Shown one piece after another: positions 18,680 through 26,932 of a stretch of 62,642 nt of DNA. The first letter of the stretch is position 1, and each line of letters starts with the position of its first letter. Where the stretch lies: NCBI GenBank assembly GCA_019116445.1, contig DXBP01000031.1, positions 1 to 62,642 of the forward strand, written 5' to 3'. This stretch comes from Candidatus Gemmiger excrementigallinarum. GTDB taxonomy: Bacteria; Bacillota; Clostridia; Oscillospirales; Ruminococcaceae. The notes beneath the pieces were generated by a model. That model was given only the letters and a program-made list of their open reading frames with translations. It did no database searches and was not told the DNA's origin. A program made the translations under genes and the position numbers.

Positions 18680-19687
18680 TTAGTTTTCCGCCGGGAGCAA
18701 AATGTCGTGTGCTACCGGCGTAAGGAACCGGGTGCGGAACGCATCCAGATCGGGGCACTGCGGCAGCAGGTGCATCGTCTTGGTGACTACCGCTTCCAGA
18801 GTCATATCATAGGCTTCAATGACGCCGTAGTTCTGCTTGATCTGATGCCCTACCTGGTAAACACTCATATCGCTGCCCTCGTAGATGACCTGGGTTGTCA
18901 TGATGACAACCTTGCCGGCTTCGATCCAGGCGCCGACTTCCCGGGCAAAATCTGCCGTGGCGTAGTATGGTACACCACCGACGCCGAATCCCTCCACGAT
19001 AAGCGCGTGATAGGCCGGCCGCAACAGGCGCAGCACATCCGGCTGAATACCGGGAATCAGTTTGAGTACAAATACCGCCGGGTCCAGTTCCAGGCTGACC
19101 GCCGGACGTCCCAGCCCCTGCGGTCTGGGCAACACCGGGTACACGTTTCGGTCCCGGATGCGGGCTACCTCCGGGTAACCGATGCTGGAAAACGCATGGT
19201 AGCTTTTGGTGCGCAGCTTTTTGGCGCGGGTCCCCAGCATCACCTGGCCGTCAAACACAATGGTCACTCCCCAGGCGCAGCCCGAGGAGGCATACAGAAA
19301 GGCATCCAGCAAATTGCGCCGGCCATCGGTTTCCCGTTCGCCGATGGAGTTCTGGGCGCCCGTCAGCACAATGGGTTTGCGCGAATCCGGCAGCATATAA
19401 CTCAGGGCGGCCGCCGTATAGGCCATGGTATCGGTGCCGTGGGTGACCACAAAACCGTCAAAAGCATCATACTGCTCGCGAATGGCCCGGGCGATCGTTT
19501 TCCAATGTTCGGGATGCACGTTGGTGCTGTCCAGCTGGAACAACTGTCTTGTTTCTACCTGGCAGATTTCCCGGATTTCCGGCACGGTGCGCAGCAGTTC
19601 CTGGGAGGTCAGCTGTGGCACTTTTCCTTCTTCAGTTTTCAGGGTTGCAATGGTGCCGCCGGTGGCCAGCATCAAAATCTTTTTCAT
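18680..19687 (-). CDS. ansA: L-asparaginase, type I
   Basis: A 335-residue enzyme that hydrolyses asparagine to aspartate and ammonia, probably cytoplasmic as no signal peptide is present. The first catalytic motif MLATGGTIA (Thr of TGGTI) is at the N-terminus. The second, VVTHGTDTMAYTAAAL at ~85, holds the Thr-Asp pair; a Lys follows in GTRAKKLRT. The segment LTGAQNSIGERETDGRRN replaces the more common LTGAQ-P-DGPRN. The ribosome site AAGGAAG precedes the ATG. It is a separate transcript from the genes upstream, judging by the hairpin at 19783-19810. Confidence 0.9.
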   Translation of the reverse strand: MKKILMLATGGTIATLKTEEGKVPQLTSQELLRTVPEIREICQVETRQLFQLDSTNVHPEHWKTIARAIREQYDAFDGFVVTHGTDTMAYTAAALSYMLPDSRKPIVLTGAQNSIGERETDGRRNLLDAFLYASSGCAWGVTIVFDGQVMLGTRAKKLRTKSYHAFSSIGYPEVARIRDRNVYPVLPRPQGLGRPAVSLELDPAVFVLKLIPGIQPDVLRLLRPAYHALIVEGFGVGGVPYYATADFAREVGAWIEAGKVVIMTTQVIYEGSDMSVYQVGHQIKQNYGVIEAYDMTLEAVVTKTMHLLPQCPDLDAFRTRFLTPVAHDILLPAEN

Positions 19688-19816: not shown

Positions 19817-22800
19817 TCAATAGGTTGTGATGGTGGTGCCGGGATAGTAGTGCAACAGGATGTCCTGGTATCCCCAGCCGTTCTGGGCGTATCCGATAGC
19901 ACCCCACTGGCTCATGCCGCAGCCGTGGCCGTAGCCGTACACATCAAAGATGAAGCAGTCCAGGCTGGCGTCATAGCTGACGGTAAAGCACTGGCTGCGC
20001 AAGCTGCGTCCGTCGACGCTCTGCCGGGCCAGCAGATTTTCACGGAACCAGCGGCCGCTGACGGTTTCGCTGTTGCCATCGGGACCGACCTGGATCTTGG
20101 CTACCCAGCCATACTGGTTGGTGGAAAGGATCTTGAACCAGTTGTTGGGGTCTACGCCGGAAAGGTCGATACCCAGTTCCGATTTGATGCGGTCCTGCAG
20201 CGTCTGGCGGGAGAAGCGCGCCGTGCCGCTGGTGCTGCCGTTGGTGTGCCAGTTGGTAGCCACCGACTGATCGTACGGGCTGTCCACCGCCTGCAGCCAG
20301 GGGCGATCGTTGCCCCAGACATCAGCCGCAGAGGCAGTACCGGTACTGGCCGATGCAAAATACGGCGTAAAGCAGACCTGCCCGTTATAAGTAACCAGCA
20401 CCCGGGCAACTTCCTGGGCCGCCGCGAGCGCTGTGGCGCCGGGCGTCGTGCCTACTACCGACGGGTAACCGGACTGACTGAGAATCCAGCAATGAGTGGC
20501 CACGCACTGTGCTTTATAGGCTTCTGCCGGTGCGTTGGGACCCAGCTCATTCTGGGCGACCATGGCCAGGCATTGCACAAGATCCATCGTCTGCGCGGTG
20601 CCGTTCATCGTAACGTTGATGGTTTCTCCGCCGGAAGAGCCACTGCCGGAATCCGTGGAGGAACTGCTGCTTCCGCCATCGCCGGAAGAAGAATCACCAG
20701 ATACGGATTCGCTGGACGAGGGTGCCTCTGTGGGAGCCGGTGTGGGAGTGGCAGCCACCTGATCTACGGTGACAACCTGCTCCGGCAGGCCGCCCTCGGC
20801 GCCCTGATTCAGGTCGGATTCCGCCTCGTTGCCGGAACCTGCCACATCGGTCAGACCGGCTAGCAGCTTATCGGTACTGGCAAGAATGGCATCCGTCTGG
20901 GCTTGCATATCTGCGATCTGATCATCCAGGTTGCTGCCCTCTTCTTCCTCCTGGGACTGGGCGCTGTTCCGGTTGGCCGCGCTGGCTGCGCTTTGCTGGG
21001 CATACCGGTCAACGCTGGCACTCAGCAGGCTGCTGACGGTGGGCATCGGCTGATTTTTGCTTTGGTACTGCAGGGCTGTCAGAAGCGGTTCTTCCGCCGC
21101 CGTGATGGAAGCACCATCCAGCGCCGCAGCTTCTTCCCCTTCGATCAGGCGTCCCGTTACGCAAAGGAGAACGCCTTCTTCGCTGGTCGTGCTGGTCAGC
21201 GTGAGGAAGTGGGAATCGTCACCGATCTCTACATTGGTCTGCCACAGGCTGCGCGCCTGAATACCGGCCACGAAGGAAAGGTAATCGTAGTAGTTGGAAA
21301 GGTCGGTGGCACCGTAAAGGTCGAAGGCCCCCTCCCCTTCCTCGGTGGGGTCAAGGTAATAGACGGCTACCATTTTGAAACGATAGGTGCCATCCTGCAG
21401 ATACAGCGTAAAGCCACTGTTCTGTTTGACAACTTCCTCCTGCGCCAGGGCGGCGTAGGTATCCCCCGTGCATTCCAGCACGGTGTTGCCGGGCGTTGCG
21501 GAATTCAGCGAACTGGCCGTGGCAAATCGAGTGATCACAGCCGGACTGCTGCTTTCCCGGGTTTCCGGTTCCGTCCCGGCCGCATATACCAGCGTACCGT
21601 CCAGACCCGGCCAGCCCAGGAATCCGACCGCACCGGGACGTTTTTCCAGCGCGTTGGTCAGATAGGCTTCCGCCGTTTCATCATACACGGTGGTACCGTA
21701 ATTTTTGGCCGCGGGGCGGGTACCGAGATCATTGCGGAAGAACCACCACAGGCCTGCTGCACCGGCAAGGAGCAGCAATACAAGAATCACCAGCACCGCT
21801 GTAACTGTACGTTTGCGGCGGCGCTCGGTGCGCTCGATCATGGCAAGACTGCGGTTGCGGATGCTGTTGGAGGCAGCCGGCGATTTTGCCTGCGGGCGGC
21901 TGTTTCTTTCCGGTTCTGCCCTGCGACGGCGGTTCTGCGCCGCCGCCAGTTCGGCTTCGTCCTCCTCGGTAAACAGCCGCGTGGCTGCTTTACTGAATTC
22001 TTCGGCAGTGGTAGTACGGCCGGCCGCAGCGTCAGCGTCATCCGCCGCCTGGGCGGCTGCCAGTGCTTCAGGGTCGATCTGGGCCGAAAAATCCGGGATC
22101 TCATCATCCAGAAGGGACGGCGCCGGGGCGCTGCGTTCCTCGATATACAGCGGTGTGGCATACTCATCCGAAACGGATGTGCGGCGACGGCGGGCAGCAC
22201 TGGCCGCCTGCGGACCAGCTGTTTCAATGTTCATGGGATCGGTGTTGACATCTTGCGCCTCATCGAAATCCGTTTCAAACTGGATGGTTCCCACCGGAGC
22301 TGCACTGCCGGACGGCTGCCGGGAAGTTTCCCGGACATTTTGTGCCGGGGCATTGTAGCGCGGCGGCATTTCCGGCTCAGCCGTGTTAAAGTCCATCATC
22401 GGCTCAAAGTCCGCCGTGTGGTCGACATCCTGGGTGGCGGGAGTTCTGCGGCGCAGCGAAAAACGCACAGTGTTGCTTTTTTCCCGTCCGGCTTCAGAAA
22501 CCAGCAGCAGAGGATGTTCCCGCCCCGGGCGGAAGGTGATACAGGAATCCGTCAGACGAAGCCCCTGCAGGCGGCGGCGCAGCAGATCCAGAATCTGATT
22601 GCCGATGGCTGCATCGGTGAGATCCGGCGGCAGTGCGCAGGCAGCGGCGCCGTGCCGGTCACAGATCAGCACAAAGGGACACTGCCCCACGGTAGCGGGC
22701 ATATAGGCTGCTGCAAAATCGGCCCCCGTAACCTGCAGAGCCGACAGCGCATGACCGGCCGCCGCCTGCACCACATCACCGGGGAACTTTTTGAGCAGCT

Positions 22801-23233
22801 GGGGCGGCACCTTGATCTGGCGCTCCCGCTGCGGGTTGGCATAACTCTCGGTACCGAAGTCGAACACCGCTTCGCTGTGGGCCAGCGGCTGCAAAAGATT
22901 CCCCAGCAGCCGGCCGGTGGTTTCATCCACAGCCACCAGCAGTTTGCGCTTCTTCAGCAGCAGATCCAAAGTTGCCTGGGCCAGGCTGGTTTCGCCAGTA
23001 GCAAAAACATCATCGCCGAATTTGGCACTGAGCTTCTGCACCCATTTATCACAATATTGTTCAGCCATCGCCCGGTTGGGAGCGCTGACCTGCACGCAGA
23101 CGGCAAACTCACCGTCCCGTTCCAGCAGACGCAGCCCCGGACAGCCATCGTCGCGGGTCTGCCGCAGCACAGCCGACACTTCGGCCGACGTCGGGCCGAA
23201 TACGCGTAAAATTTTGAGTTGTGTGTTGACCAT
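19817..23233 (-). CDS. CinA-like / sortase-B-like / SpoIID chimeric membrane protein
   Basis: A 1138-residue protein in five parts. Residues 1-~260 resemble the middle and C-terminal domains of CinA, encoded upstream, but the amidase motif AESCTGG has become AVDETTGR. Residues ~260-470 are an Ala/Glu-rich cytoplasmic linker. A helix follows at ~476-498 (VTAVLVILVLLLLAGAAGLW). Residues ~525-697 look like class B sortase (FTLYLQDGTYRFKMVAVYYL, FVAGIQARSLWQTNVEI, FLTLTST), but the Cys of TLSTC is Thr682 and no YGHH motif is present. A Ser/Gly-rich linker leads to a SpoIID domain (~871-1138) with Glu896 in AQNELG and YGHGCGMSQWGA. It may couple a cytoplasmic sensor to cell-wall remodelling. Function is not established. 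Confidence 0.8.
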   Translation of the reverse strand: MVNTQLKILRVFGPTSAEVSAVLRQTRDDGCPGLRLLERDGEFAVCVQVSAPNRAMAEQYCDKWVQKLSAKFGDDVFATGETSLAQATLDLLLKKRKLLVAVDETTGRLLGNLLQPLAHSEAVFDFGTESYANPQRERQIKVPPQLLKKFPGDVVQAAAGHALSALQVTGADFAAAYMPATVGQCPFVLICDRHGAAACALPPDLTDAAIGNQILDLLRRRLQGLRLTDSCITFRPGREHPLLLVSEAGREKSNTVRFSLRRRTPATQDVDHTADFEPMMDFNTAEPEMPPRYNAPAQNVRETSRQPSGSAAPVGTIQFETDFDEAQDVNTDPMNIETAGPQAASAARRRRTSVSDEYATPLYIEERSAPAPSLLDDEIPDFSAQIDPEALAAAQAADDADAAAGRTTTAEEFSKAATRLFTEEDEAELAAAQNRRRRAEPERNSRPQAKSPAASNSIRNRSLAMIERTERRRKRTVTAVLVILVLLLLAGAAGLWWFFRNDLGTRPAAKNYGTTVYDETAEAYLTNALEKRPGAVGFLGWPGLDGTLVYAAGTEPETRESSSPAVITRFATASSLNSATPGNTVLECTGDTYAALAQEEVVKQNSGFTLYLQDGTYRFKMVAVYYLDPTEEGEGAFDLYGATDLSNYYDYLSFVAGIQARSLWQTNVEIGDDSHFLTLTSTTSEEGVLLCVTGRLIEGEEAAALDGASITAAEEPLLTALQYQSKNQPMPTVSSLLSASVDRYAQQSAASAANRNSAQSQEEEEGSNLDDQIADMQAQTDAILASTDKLLAGLTDVAGSGNEAESDLNQGAEGGLPEQVVTVDQVAATPTPAPTEAPSSSESVSGDSSSGDGGSSSSSTDSGSGSSGGETINVTMNGTAQTMDLVQCLAMVAQNELGPNAPAEAYKAQCVATHCWILSQSGYPSVVGTTPGATALAAAQEVARVLVTYNGQVCFTPYFASASTGTASAADVWGNDRPWLQAVDSPYDQSVATNWHTNGSTSGTARFSRQTLQDRIKSELGIDLSGVDPNNWFKILSTNQYGWVAKIQVGPDGNSETVSGRWFRENLLARQSVDGRSLRSQCFTVSYDASLDCFIFDVYGYGHGCGMSQWGAIGYAQNGWGYQDILLHYYPGTTITTY

Positions 23234-23254: not shown

Positions 23255-24556
23255 TCATATATCACTCTGTTCCGGTGGTGTATCCTGCGTAACGGCAAGG
23301 CCGTCGGGGACCGGAAGCCCCAGCGCCATACGGCGCAGCAGGTCCAGCGCATACAGCGCTGCACGGGTGCGGATGATTCCCCGGTCATGATAACCGCCCA
23401 ACGTCAGCCGCATCAGCCAGCCGGTGCCGGTACGGGTATCGGCACCGGCCAGATAGACGGTGCCCACCGGTTTGCCGGGCAGTGCTCCGCCGGGACCGGC
23501 GATACCGGTAATCCCCACAGCCAGTTCGGCGCCCGATGCCTTCGCAGCGCCAAAAGCCATGGCAACAGCCACCGGCCCGGACACCACATTGTACCGCTCG
23601 ATCAGCGCAGCATCCACCCCCAGCAGTTTCTGCTTGGCAGCCTCCGCATAGGTGACAAAACCGAAGCCGAACACTTCACTGGCGCCAGGCACGTTGGTCA
23701 GCCGCTGGGCGACCATGCCGCCGGTACAGCTTTCCGCCGTGGCCGCGTGCAGACCTTTTTGCCGCAAAACGCGCACTACCGTGTATTCCAGGGCGGGCAC
23801 GTCCACATCGTAAGCAGCGTCGCCCAGGATGTCACGGAATTTTTGCAGATATTCATTGCAGGCGCGCTCCGCCGCTTCGGGGGTGGCTTCCCGTGCGGTA
23901 ACACGGATCTCGCTCTCTCCCGTTTTGCAGTAAATCGCCGCGGTGGGGTTGGCGTTTTCAAACAGCGGCGCCACTTTGCTGGCAATACTGCTCTCTCCGC
24001 CCAATACCCGCAGAGTGCGGGAGTGAATCGTGCAATTCTGGCGCTTCTGCAGTGCCGGGCGGACCTGCTCGGTCCACATGGCTTTCATTTCCCGGGGAAC
24101 GCCGGGCATCAGCACGGCGCAATGGCCCTGTTCATCCTCAAACCAGGCACCGGGGGCGGTACCGTGGTCGTTGATGATCTTATGCCCCCGGGTGGGGACC
24201 ATAGCCTGTTTGCGGTTGTTGGGGGTAGGATTGCGGTTGGTGCGGGCGAAAAAGGAAACGATCTTGTCCCATTCTTCCTCATCAAAGTGCAAGGTATCCC
24301 CGAATGCCTCGGCGACTGTTTCCTTCGTCAGGTCATCCTCGGTAGGCCCCAGCCCGCCCGAAAACACCAGCAAATCGCTGCGGCGGCGGGCCTGACTCAC
24401 CAGTTCCCGCAGCCGTTCGGGATTATCCCCGATCACATACTGATGCAGGACGCTGATGCCCAGTTCCGCCAATTCCCGGCTCAGGAACTGGGCGTTGGTG
24501 TTGACAATGTCCCCCAGCAGCAATTCCGTACCTACACAAATGATTTCTGCAGTCAC
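23255..24556 (-). CDS. cinA: CinA-family nicotinamide-nucleotide amidase
   Basis: A 433-residue full-length CinA. Residues ~1-170 form the MoCF-type domain (CVGTELLLGDIVNTN, FSGGLGPTEDDLT). A KH-like middle domain follows at ~185-255. The C-terminal NMN amidase domain has TAESCTGGMVAQRL, the catalytic serine motif, and VGITGIAGPGG. The enzyme deamidates NMN in pyridine nucleotide salvage. The start overlaps the thiI stop (ATGA). The next gene begins 21 bases after its stop and carries a decayed copy of its last two domains. Confidence 0.93.
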   Translation of the reverse strand: MTAEIICVGTELLLGDIVNTNAQFLSRELAELGISVLHQYVIGDNPERLRELVSQARRRSDLLVFSGGLGPTEDDLTKETVAEAFGDTLHFDEEEWDKIVSFFARTNRNPTPNNRKQAMVPTRGHKIINDHGTAPGAWFEDEQGHCAVLMPGVPREMKAMWTEQVRPALQKRQNCTIHSRTLRVLGGESSIASKVAPLFENANPTAAIYCKTGESEIRVTAREATPEAAERACNEYLQKFRDILGDAAYDVDVPALEYTVVRVLRQKGLHAATAESCTGGMVAQRLTNVPGASEVFGFGFVTYAEAAKQKLLGVDAALIERYNVVSGPVAVAMAFGAAKASGAELAVGITGIAGPGGALPGKPVGTVYLAGADTRTGTGWLMRLTLGGYHDRGIIRTRAALYALDLLRRMALGLPVPDGLAVTQDTPPEQSDI

Positions 24557-25746
24557 AGCAGATCATCCTCTCCCATCCGGATGGCGATTTTCTCCACCTG
24601 TTCGGCAGCTTCGGCTTCCAGGGCCTTCAGTTCCGGCATACCTTCCTCGGCTGCCAGAATCTCAGCCAGCGTGGGGTTAGTCTTGGGATGGGGCGGCGTA
24701 AAGATCGTGCAGCAGTCCTCGTAAGGTTCGATGGAGGTTTCAAAGGTGCCGATCTTGCGGGAAATCGAGATGATTTCCGTCTTATCCATGCCGATGCAGG
24801 GCCGCAGCACCGGCAGGTCCTGGGCTTCATCGGTGCAGGCCAGGGCCGCCATGGTCTGGCTGGCCACCTGAGCCAGGCTTTCACCGGTAATGAGGGCCTG
24901 CAGTTCCAGTTTATCAGCCACCTGCTTTGCAATGCGCAGCATACTGCGGCGCATGAGCACCGTGAACAGCACATCGGGTGCATGATCGCGGATATATTCC
25001 TGGGGTTTGGTGTAAGGTACCACGAACAGTGTGCAGTTGCCGGTGTATTCCACCAGTTCCTTGGCCAGTTTCTGTACCTTGAGTTTTGCGCGCAGGCTGG
25101 TATAGGGCGGGCTGGCAAAATGGATGTGATGCAGCGCCAGACCGCGGCGCGCCATACACCAGGCTGCCACGGGGCTGTCGATACCGCCCGAAAGCAAGTT
25201 CAGGGCCCGGCCGCTGGTGCCCACCGGCAAACCGCCGGCCGCTTCCACCTTGGGGCCGTGGACATAGGCGGCATGGTCACGAATCTCCACCATGATCTCC
25301 AACTGGGGATGGTGGACATCCACCCGCAGGTGATGGTGTTTATCCAGCAGATAGGCACCCAGTTCCCGGCAGATTTCCGGGCTCTTCATCGGGTAGGACT
25401 TATCAGCCCGTTTGGCCTCCACCTTAAAAGTGCGCAGACCGCGCAGTGTCTGGCCAAGGTAGGCTTCCGCTGTTTCGCAGATGGCGGAAAACTCCTTGTC
25501 ACATTCCACGGCGCGGCTCATCTTTACGATGCCGAACACACGGGACACACGGCGGAATGCCTCGTCCATATCCAGGTTTTCCTCCAACGGTTCGATAAAA
25601 ACCGTGCTCTGGGCCTGGTACACTTTGAATTTGCCCAGCGGCTCCAGCCGCCAGCGAATGATCTTGGCAAGACGTGCTTCAAACTTGCCGCGGTTCAGGC
25701 CCTTGAGGGTCATTTCGCCCTGATAGGCCAGGATGATTTCTTTCAT
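24553..25746 (-). CDS. thiI: tRNA 4-thiouridine synthase
   Basis: A 397-residue ThiI. It has an N-terminal ferredoxin-like and THUMP region (LRTFKVEAKRADKSYPMKSP) for tRNA binding, then the PP-loop ATPase signature LLSGGIDSPVAAWCMARRG at ~185. It activates U8 of tRNA with ATP and inserts sulfur. The C-terminal rhodanese domain of the E. coli enzyme is missing, as in Bacillus, so sulfur should come directly from the cysteine desulfurase encoded upstream. It overlaps cinA by four bases. Confidence 0.94.
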   Translation of the reverse strand: MKEIILAYQGEMTLKGLNRGKFEARLAKIIRWRLEPLGKFKVYQAQSTVFIEPLEENLDMDEAFRRVSRVFGIVKMSRAVECDKEFSAICETAEAYLGQTLRGLRTFKVEAKRADKSYPMKSPEICRELGAYLLDKHHHLRVDVHHPQLEIMVEIRDHAAYVHGPKVEAAGGLPVGTSGRALNLLSGGIDSPVAAWCMARRGLALHHIHFASPPYTSLRAKLKVQKLAKELVEYTGNCTLFVVPYTKPQEYIRDHAPDVLFTVLMRRSMLRIAKQVADKLELQALITGESLAQVASQTMAALACTDEAQDLPVLRPCIGMDKTEIISISRKIGTFETSIEPYEDCCTIFTPPHPKTNPTLAEILAAEEGMPELKALEAEAAEQVEKIAIRMGEDDLL

Positions 25747-25774: not shown

Positions 25775-26932
25775 TCAGATATGCTGCAGACTCTGCAGGC
25801 CGTTTTTCAGGCCGTCCAGCAGGGCATCCACATCCGCGGCGGTGTTATCAGCGCAGAAGCTGACACGCAGCGCTGTGTGAATGGTACGCTCATCACAGCC
25901 CATGGCTTCCAGCGTATGGCTGGGTTCCCCCTTGTCGCAGGCGCTGCCGCCCGAAACCAGAACGCCACGGGTGTTGAGATAATTGATAAAGGTCTGGCTG
26001 TTGATACAGCCGGTGGAGAAGTTCACGACCTCCGGCACCGCATCCGCCGGGGAATTGATGTGGATACCCGGCAGCGCGGCCAGCCCCTCCCGCAGACGGT
26101 GATTCAAGGCTTCCATTTGCTGGGAACGGGTACGCATGGACTGGTAGCCTTTGGCAGCCGCCAGGCCCAAACCGACGATATAGGGTGTATTCTCGGTACC
26201 GGGGCGCAAGCCGCGTTCCTGATGGCCGCCGCAGTAGGGCGGGCGCAGGGTCTGGCGCTGGCTGTCCCGGATGAACAGCGCACCGATGCCTTTGGGCGCA
26301 TGGATCTTATGGCCCGATACCGCCAGTGTGTCCACCCCGGCCCATTTCTGCAGATCAATGGGGATCCGCAGCCACGCCTGCACCGCATCCACATGGAAAT
26401 GGGTACGGCTGTTGCGGGCCTTGATGCCTGCCGCCAGCGCCGCAATATCCTGCACGGCGCCGGTTTCATTGTTGACCGCCATGCAGGAGGCCAGCACAGT
26501 GTTTTTGTCCACCGCCGCCAGGAATTTGTTCACGTCCAGATGGCCGTCCGCTTCCGGCGGAATCTCCACCACCTGGAAGCCTTCGTTTTTCAGCGCGCGG
26601 GCCGCAAGCTGCACGCTGGGATGCTCAAATCCGGATACCACGACCTTGTTGCCCCAATGCCGCCGGGGCATGGCCGCGCCCCATACCGCCATATTGTTGC
26701 CCTCGGTACCGCAGCCGGTGAAATAGATCTCATCGCTGCGGCAGTGCAAAGTTTTTGCGATACGGGTCCGGGCGTTTTCGATGCCGTCCTGTGCAGCCAC
26801 CGCCGGGTCGTACAGGCTGCTGGGATTGGCCCACAATTCCACCAGCGCATCGTGGATGACCTCGGTCACCGCCGGGTCGATGCGGGTGGTTGCGGCATTG
26901 TCCAGATAATGAAGCTGGGGGTCGGAAAGCAT
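25775..26932 (-). CDS. nifS: Cysteine desulfurase (NifS/IscS family)
   Basis: A 385-residue PLP enzyme that removes sulfur from cysteine. It begins with YLDNAATTRIDP. The lysine that binds PLP is in LAVSGHKIHAPKG. The persulfide cysteine is in SGGSACDKGEPSHTL, with Asp-Lys in place of the more common Ser residues. GGHQERGLRPGTEN is also typical. It is the first gene of the apparent nifS-thiI-cinA operon, so its main role is probably sulfur supply to ThiI for s4U in tRNA. Confidence 0.93.
   Translation of the reverse strand: MLSDPQLHYLDNAATTRIDPAVTEVIHDALVELWANPSSLYDPAVAAQDGIENARTRIAKTLHCRSDEIYFTGCGTEGNNMAVWGAAMPRRHWGNKVVVSGFEHPSVQLAARALKNEGFQVVEIPPEADGHLDVNKFLAAVDKNTVLASCMAVNNETGAVQDIAALAAGIKARNSRTHFHVDAVQAWLRIPIDLQKWAGVDTLAVSGHKIHAPKGIGALFIRDSQRQTLRPPYCGGHQERGLRPGTENTPYIVGLGLAAAKGYQSMRTRSQQMEALNHRLREGLAALPGIHINSPADAVPEVVNFSTGCINSQTFINYLNTRGVLVSGGSACDKGEPSHTLEAMGCDERTIHTALRVSFCADNTAADVDALLDGLKNGLQSLQHI

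Follow-up and report, generated by a model that had tools for sequence, protein, structure and literature searches.

A gene of Candidatus Gemmiger excrementigallinarum, at positions 19817 to 23233 of contig DXBP01000031.1 (NCBI GenBank assembly GCA_019116445.1; the whole stretch of 62,642 nucleotides is hereafter called the window), probably encodes a membrane-anchored glycan cutter of the SpoIID type, equipped with a cytosolic pseudo-CinA docking domain and a wall-side pseudo-sortase, and belongs to a locus with the gene order iscS-thiI-cinA-srtB-spoIID. The gene is read on the minus strand, as are all window features named below, from an ATG at 23233 to a stop at 19817, and its 1138 residues comprise a pseudo-CinA, a cytosolic linker, a membrane helix, a pseudo-sortase, a second linker, and a SpoIID domain. 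CinA is a pyridine-nucleotide recycling enzyme, sortase B a protein-anchoring transpeptidase, and SpoIID a glycan cutter. The original prediction, made from the window alone, described a chimera of decayed CinA, dead sortase, and SpoIID; its observation is confirmed and its interpretation partly supported, in that the domains, their order, the lost CinA and sortase active sites, and the kept SpoIID Glu all hold up, but the protein is no isolated oddity: a conserved CinA-SrtB-SpoIID locus is seen here fused and in partial decay.

The N-terminal part was recognised as CinA by several profiles. Pfam CinA matched residues 82-176 with 27.1 bits against a cut-off of 23.5, within a decayed CinA/PncC-type nicotinamide mononucleotide (NMN) deamidase domain delimited by residue columns and model at residues 82-223 (positions 22565-22990), while the preceding KH-like domain (residues 7-78, positions 23000-23215) scored 22.5 bits with Pfam CinA_KH, under the cut-off of 27. 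The whole-CinA profile PRK00549 covered residues 5-176 at E 1.7e-15, with 56.9 bits as against an equivalog cut-off of 379. A profile of 23 pseudo-CinA sequences found solved CinA structures (6mr3 at E 5.8e-15; Thermus thermophilus CinA, 4ct8, at E 3.3e-6), and across 23 sequences of several genera 22 columns are invariant, the start Met among them. Structure prediction had been set beforehand as a check for both this domain and the sortase-like one, and the AlphaFold2 model of residues 1-245 reached a predicted local distance difference test score (pLDDT) of 91.0 and a predicted template modelling score (pTM) of 0.88; both models were built from alignments that contained homologues and so do not count as evidence separate from the profiles. 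Compared with CinA, the bifunctional NMN deamidase/ADP-ribose pyrophosphatase (4ct8), and with PncC, the fused protein is alike in its KH and CinA folds and in its adjacency to cinA. It differs in having no MoCF/COG1058 domain (unmatched in the Pfam search), no catalytic Ser, and no substrate loop, and in the membrane helix joined on. A phage search with residues 1-265 returned no match.

According to PMC5384747, Agrobacterium CinA (AtCinA) has S31 and K63 as its catalytic dyad; the phosphate is held by R145 and Y58, the amide and ribose are contacted by T105-G109, and a C32A variant is still active. In the window protein the AESCTGG motif is absent, as had been stated, and in AtCinA numbering S31 is replaced by Glu, C32 by Thr, G35 by Arg, and K63 by Arg; the loop T105-P110 is not kept, and Tyr58 and Arg145 are. 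The CinA fold is retained without the Ser/Lys dyad and substrate loop of an NMN deamidase. The original prediction suggested a sensor-effector, in which a nucleotide or nicotinamide compound, bound by the CinA-like domain in the cytosol, triggers a signal across the membrane to SpoIID. Among 45 Gemmiger-type fused copies (L004-L058) the phosphate side of the pocket speaks for such a role, position 145 being Arg in 45/45 and position 58 Tyr in 35 and Trp in the other 10, with Lys at position 63 in 13 of the 45; moreover, relatives such as locus L243 keep the CinA catalytic residues, so that NMN or ADP-ribose could have been the signal read by an ancestral fusion. The catalytic Ser, however, is replaced in all 45 copies (Ser is present in L065, a short copy that stands alone), the ribose/nicotinamide loop is not kept, and AtCinA that has lost Arg145 melts at a lower temperature, 54 °C (PMC5384747), so that retention of this Arg may be structural. 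With the catalytic Ser and loop gone, NMN binding as first worded is unlikely, and we regard the sensor-effector as a whole as doubtful.

Between the CinA-like and sortase-like parts lie an acidic cytosolic linker without Cys (residues 246-470, positions 21824-22498) and the only membrane helix of the protein (approximately residues 477-497, positions 21743-21805), anticipated by the original prediction and marked by a 19-residue window, 477-495, with a mean Kyte-Doolittle hydropathy of 2.8. The RRRK just before the helix predicts that the CinA-like part should be inside the cell and the remainder outside.

The domain behind the helix (residues 508-712, positions 21098-21712) has the fold of a class B sortase and has lost its active site. 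As a single sequence it was matched weakly by the SrtB profile TIGR03064 over residues 597-682 (E 2.5e-4, 20.4 bits as against a cut-off of 153.75). A profile of 22 pseudo-sortases alone reached Clostridioides difficile SrtB (4ux7) at E 1.5e-7 together with other SrtBs, C. difficile 5gyj being a further point of reference; antibody structures in the same list were weak (E of at least 0.014) and were taken as chance. When 19 active-looking sortases from related loci were made into a profile, which itself found SrtB structures at E 7.8e-48, hhalign joined it to the pseudo-sortase profile at 98.7% probability (E 1.4e-16). The AlphaFold2 model of residues 505-715 (pLDDT 90.1, pTM 0.88) agrees with the profiles, and L243, a relative at the same type of locus, passes the SrtB cut-off. 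In the aligned columns, all three catalytic residues of a class B sortase are replaced in the window domain, His by Asn, Cys by Thr682, and Arg by Leu; the Thr in place of the Cys had been noticed from the outset. The domain probably serves as a spacer or placement domain. A second linker follows (residues 713-867, positions 20633-21097), with an S/T/P/G/Q/N fraction of 0.52.

The C-terminal 271 residues (868-1138, positions 19820-20632) form a SpoIID/LytB domain with its catalytic residue in place. SpoIID_LytB (TIGR02669) matched residues 882-1136 with 107 bits against a cut-off of 83.3; Pfam SpoIID remained under its cut-off (16.7 bits, 23 needed), and the 110.6 bits scored with the spore_II_D equivalog TIGR02870 lie below the 234.75 required of a sporulation SpoIID. 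Glu896, whose retention had been predicted, is invariant in 21 of 21 aligned sequences, and in the family survey described below the catalytic Glu is present in 26 of 27 SpoIID rows, with a gap in the remaining one. The fused protein shares with the SpoIID/LytB lytic transglycosylases of C. difficile, Bacillus subtilis, and Waddlia the TIGR02669 match, the catalytic Glu, and a single membrane helix with the enzyme presumably outside; in contrast to known SpoIIDs it carries 867 extra N-terminal residues, including the cytosolic CinA-like domain. C. difficile SpoIID cleaves glycan strands after stripping by SpoIIP (PMC6221140), and the SpoIID of the non-sporulating Waddlia is located at the division septum (PMC6635528). 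By analogy, the window domain would also cut glycan strands. The amidase SpoIIP, which produces the substrate of SpoIID, was found in 15 of 16 genomes searched. Genomes of 2-3 Mb hold approximately three SpoIID-type genes, and the genome under study has a separate SpoIID gene of ordinary length on contig C35 (332-residue frame) and a further SpoIID-type gene under the SpoIID_LytB cut-off (G000:C62:4272-5048, 369-residue frame); given these two, the fused gene is probably an extra paralogue and not the ordinary sporulation enzyme.

In the window, the fused gene is preceded by an intact, canonical cinA (positions 23255-24556) with MoCF, KH, and CinA domains over their Pfam and NCBIfam cut-offs (NF001813, 461.7 bits), from which it is separated by 21 nucleotides. 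Upstream of this lies thiI (24553-25746; TIGR00342 over cut-off), a conserved partner in the locus, which overlaps the cinA start by 4 nucleotides, and then a cysteine desulfurase gene of the iscS/nifS type (25775-26932), the usual first gene of the locus, with 337 bits in TIGR03402, under the equivalog cut-off of 530.75. The window therefore has the gene order that defines the locus, iscS-thiI-cinA followed by the sortase and SpoIID domains, all on one strand. The next gene downstream of the fused one, also on the minus strand, encodes a type I asparaginase (18680-19687; TIGR00519 over cut-off).

Matches to the fused protein were found in all 34 other Gemmiger genomes searched. Of 30 Gemmiger loci examined, the present one included, 29 are single frames of 1076-1204 residues and one leaves its contig, on which ground an artefact of frameshift or mis-assembly was rejected; five further genomes of the genus match in pieces, G028 with one frame of 1230 residues and G003, G018, G023, and G032 with short frames or on separate contigs. 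A cinA with the ESCT motif stands upstream in 20/20 Gemmiger loci checked (L004-L024 without L016). Gemmiger is placed in the Oscillospiraceae by NCBI, and "family" in the counts that follow means the GTDB family. A search of 297 genomes of the family yielded 20 loci outside the genus, of which 12 are whole fused genes with the same domain order in five genera, 4 leave their contigs (in L058, from a sixth genus, the gene does so behind the sortase), and 4 are a short form. The matches throughout the genus, together with whole genes in five further genera, exclude chance, and the domain order is conserved well beyond the SpoIID part. All 20 of these loci have a CinA or PncC upstream, with thiI before it in 19 (the contig of L060 ends there); in this upstream protein 17 loci carry the motif ESCT[GA]G, and L045-L047 have AESLTGG and retain the Lys. 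In four loci the upstream CinA is only the C-terminal PncC part, in frames of 190-238 residues (L045:4823-5392, L046:5041-5610, L047:4395-5108, and L057:4487-5122). The short form, a pseudo-CinA with one membrane helix, sits directly behind cinA in three other genera (L060:1172-2023, L061:3849-4916, L062:3463-4410, and L063:3589-4446); these stretches gave no sortase or SpoIID match and the adjoining cinA carries the ESCT motif, which argues that the pair of pseudo-CinA and helix has a use of its own.

The fused gene is one state of a locus that is widespread in the family. From an even draw of 62 genomes, 56 of them with CinA, 47 genomes not already covered, from 47 genera with one for each, were examined, and CinA was called linked if a sortase and/or SpoIID domain was fused to it or followed it on the same strand within 5 kb. 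This was so in 32/47 genera. Both sortase and SpoIID are present in 23 of the 32, with a CinA-sortase fusion in 17, a CinA-SpoIID fusion in 10, and all three in one frame in 9; each of these triple frames has a hydrophobic window (mean 1.8-3.0) between CinA and sortase. Just upstream, thiI was found in all 32 and iscS in 30. With approximately three SpoIID-type genes in a genome of 2-3 Mb, the neighbourhood of CinA and SpoIID-type genes is estimated to arise by chance with a probability below 1%. As read from aligned columns, the catalytic residues of the sortase are lost also in L225, L240, L241, L242, and L245 and are intact in L244 and L258; L255 has CinA and SpoIID with no sortase detected. 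A charged motif, [KR]GDxxxE[IV]xRK, recurs in locus sortases or fusions (L215, L224, L227, L233, L234, L237, L246, L248, L257, L258, and L259) and, in L078, L088, L097, and L149, immediately precedes the membrane helix; it is absent from the window protein.

Further loci in named genomes were collected with the SpoIID part as the query, the pseudo-CinA alignment from many genera being too diverse for this purpose. Among at least 80 such loci, CinA, sortase, and SpoIID lie on one strand in 21, and sortase and SpoIID in 29; many, among the matches listed, have the class B sortase motifs YGHN and TLSTC. Three class B sortases stand in a row behind PncC and upstream of SpoIID in L090:3870-7319, and in L110:1918-7088 three class B sortases surround a 640-residue frame upstream of SpoIID, with no CinA match in the examined stretch. 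Order-wide, 60 of 66 CinA-bearing genomes were examined, 57 of them outside the family, and a sortase adjoins or is fused to CinA in 7 (G039, G044, G050, G058, G367, G379, and G391), with SpoIID only in G050. A class-wide survey of 157 genomes with L149 as the query found, among the matches listed, mostly CinA frames of approximately 410-460 residues, the longer ones being G542 (809 residues) and G416 (1111 residues), and leaves room for CinA fusions outside the order.

The architecture also exists intact. In L243, PncC, SrtB, and SpoIID_LytB are all over their NCBIfam cut-offs in one frame of 1194 residues, with the CinA residues, the sortase His-Cys-Arg, and the SpoIID Glu in place; L149 (Bacillota bacterium isolate JPNG_metabat.97) is similar, its SrtB score of 147.3 bits lying just under 153.75. 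The Gemmiger form is thus a decayed state of this architecture, and decay of the locus CinA goes with the presence of a second copy. With intact CinA defined as ES[CL]T[GA]G, so as to include the AESLTGG of G131, the locus CinA is degenerate in 9/9 linked genomes that have a second CinA elsewhere, 7 of these being without the catalytic Ser and 2 (L232 and L244) keeping it with Cys32 and other pocket residues lost. In linked single-copy genomes it is intact in 22/23, and the exception (G090, 91% complete) keeps Ser. A Fisher test gave p 4e-6 with G106, which has two CinA copies, scored as single-copy (8/8 vs 22/24), a value that overstates independence because of shared ancestry and a poorly resolved tree; relatedness-aware pairing gave 2 pairs on supported branches and none in the opposite direction, a number too small for significance. 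G106 also has a 737-residue frame with a His-Cys-Arg sortase (L266:3092-5302), at a distance of 4.4 kb from the genome's second cinA, the canonical one. Gemmiger fits the two-copy pattern, its intact CinA being the gene next door. The tree of locus SpoIIDs, weakly resolved with 18/41 inner branches open, requires no fewer than 6 changes in the state of CinA and 3 in that of the sortase, and on it L225 (CinA intact, sortase dead, SpoIID present) stands beside the Gemmiger clade with a Shimodaira-Hasegawa-like approximate likelihood-ratio test (SH-aLRT) support of 95.

The ratio of non-synonymous to synonymous substitution rates (dN/dS) was calculated as medians of pairwise NG86 estimates over 20 Gemmiger genomes, in which shared branches are counted repeatedly and pairs with dS outside 0.05-1.5 are dropped. 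The intact neighbouring CinA gave 0.25, the pseudo-CinA 0.29, and SpoIID 0.18, whereas the pseudo-sortase gave 0.44 (0.44-0.50 over two calculations; its C-terminal half 0.37), and the linkers 0.46 (residues 270-470) and 0.64 (residues 720-865). The pseudo-CinA is thus under purifying selection of a strength expected for a working protein, and the pseudo-sortase is hardly more constrained than the linkers. The earlier description of the pseudo-sortase as "wall-binding" is not supported; in Gemmiger this domain evolves faster than the other two. These values bear on the proposal that the CinA- and sortase-like parts are leftovers of a fusion that merely precede SpoIID in frame and carry the helix. 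Such a passive relic would fit the loss of catalytic residues in both parts and, as to the sortase, in the five other loci named above, the pseudo-sortase ratio, and the want of a detectable sortase in L255. It fits badly with a pseudo-CinA that evolves almost as slowly as intact CinA in the same genomes and is probably no neutral relic, with well-formed predicted folds and the invariant columns, and with a pseudo-CinA and helix without SpoIID in other genera, and we consider it rather improbable. Quite improbable, too, is that co-expression alone keeps the genes together and that the fusions are accidents with no link in function: iscS and thiI, which are housekeeping genes, do stand in the same row and the link is missing in 15 genera, but it recurs in 32, where the parts are separate genes or are fused at varying joints (CinA-sortase, CinA-sortase-SpoIID, and CinA-SpoIID), and none of the surveyed frames joins iscS or thiI to another searched part.

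The mechanism that we propose for the membrane-anchored glycan cutter starts from a fusion whose parts would have been intact. Its SpoIID part would cut peptidoglycan glycan strands outside the cell, as studied SpoIIDs do, and the pseudo-CinA may retain the protein-protein surfaces of CinA and act as a docking or dimerising module, the simplest mechanism for a domain that is constrained without catalysis. CinA is a dimer in which one two-fold axis serves the KH and deamidase domains, according to PMC4246079. The simplest pairing would be of the pseudo-CinA with itself or with the intact CinA encoded just upstream, so that where the wall cutter sits, or how active it is, might follow cytosolic CinA. 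Several points weigh against this proposal. The suggested docking draws on the CinA dimer and the neighbouring gene only. In L225, the nearest relative on the weakly resolved tree, CinA is intact and single-copy, and docking to a separate CinA is thus impossible there. The pseudo-sortase, with a ratio of 0.44 like those of the linkers, may do little in Gemmiger, and the 15/47 genera that have cinA with neither sortase nor SpoIID nearby make clear that the link is not obligatory. A bolder extension, which we put forward tentatively and think unlikely to hold in full, is a transmembrane system that ties the NAD cycle, or NMN-making DNA repair, to wall cutting: CinA dimers of the full form would read NMN or ADP-ribose and control the outer sortase and SpoIID of the same protein, and in Gemmiger sensing would have moved to the separate intact CinA, which would pair with the pseudo-CinA as its regulatory subunit.

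In the open-access papers searched, none was found on the combination of CinA, sortase, and SpoIID, of CinA and SpoIID, or of class B sortase and SpoIID, domain-architecture listings being outside the scope of this search. That the three parts are neighbours or fused again and again across one large family of gut bacteria hints that they share a process. Nature has provided the variants: fusions in which nothing is lost, in which CinA is degenerate, in which the sortase is dead, or in which both are. These tell the parts that need catalysis from those retained for some other reason, and a role of CinA at the cell envelope can thereby be tested directly in commensals of the gut, Gemmiger formicilis being one.

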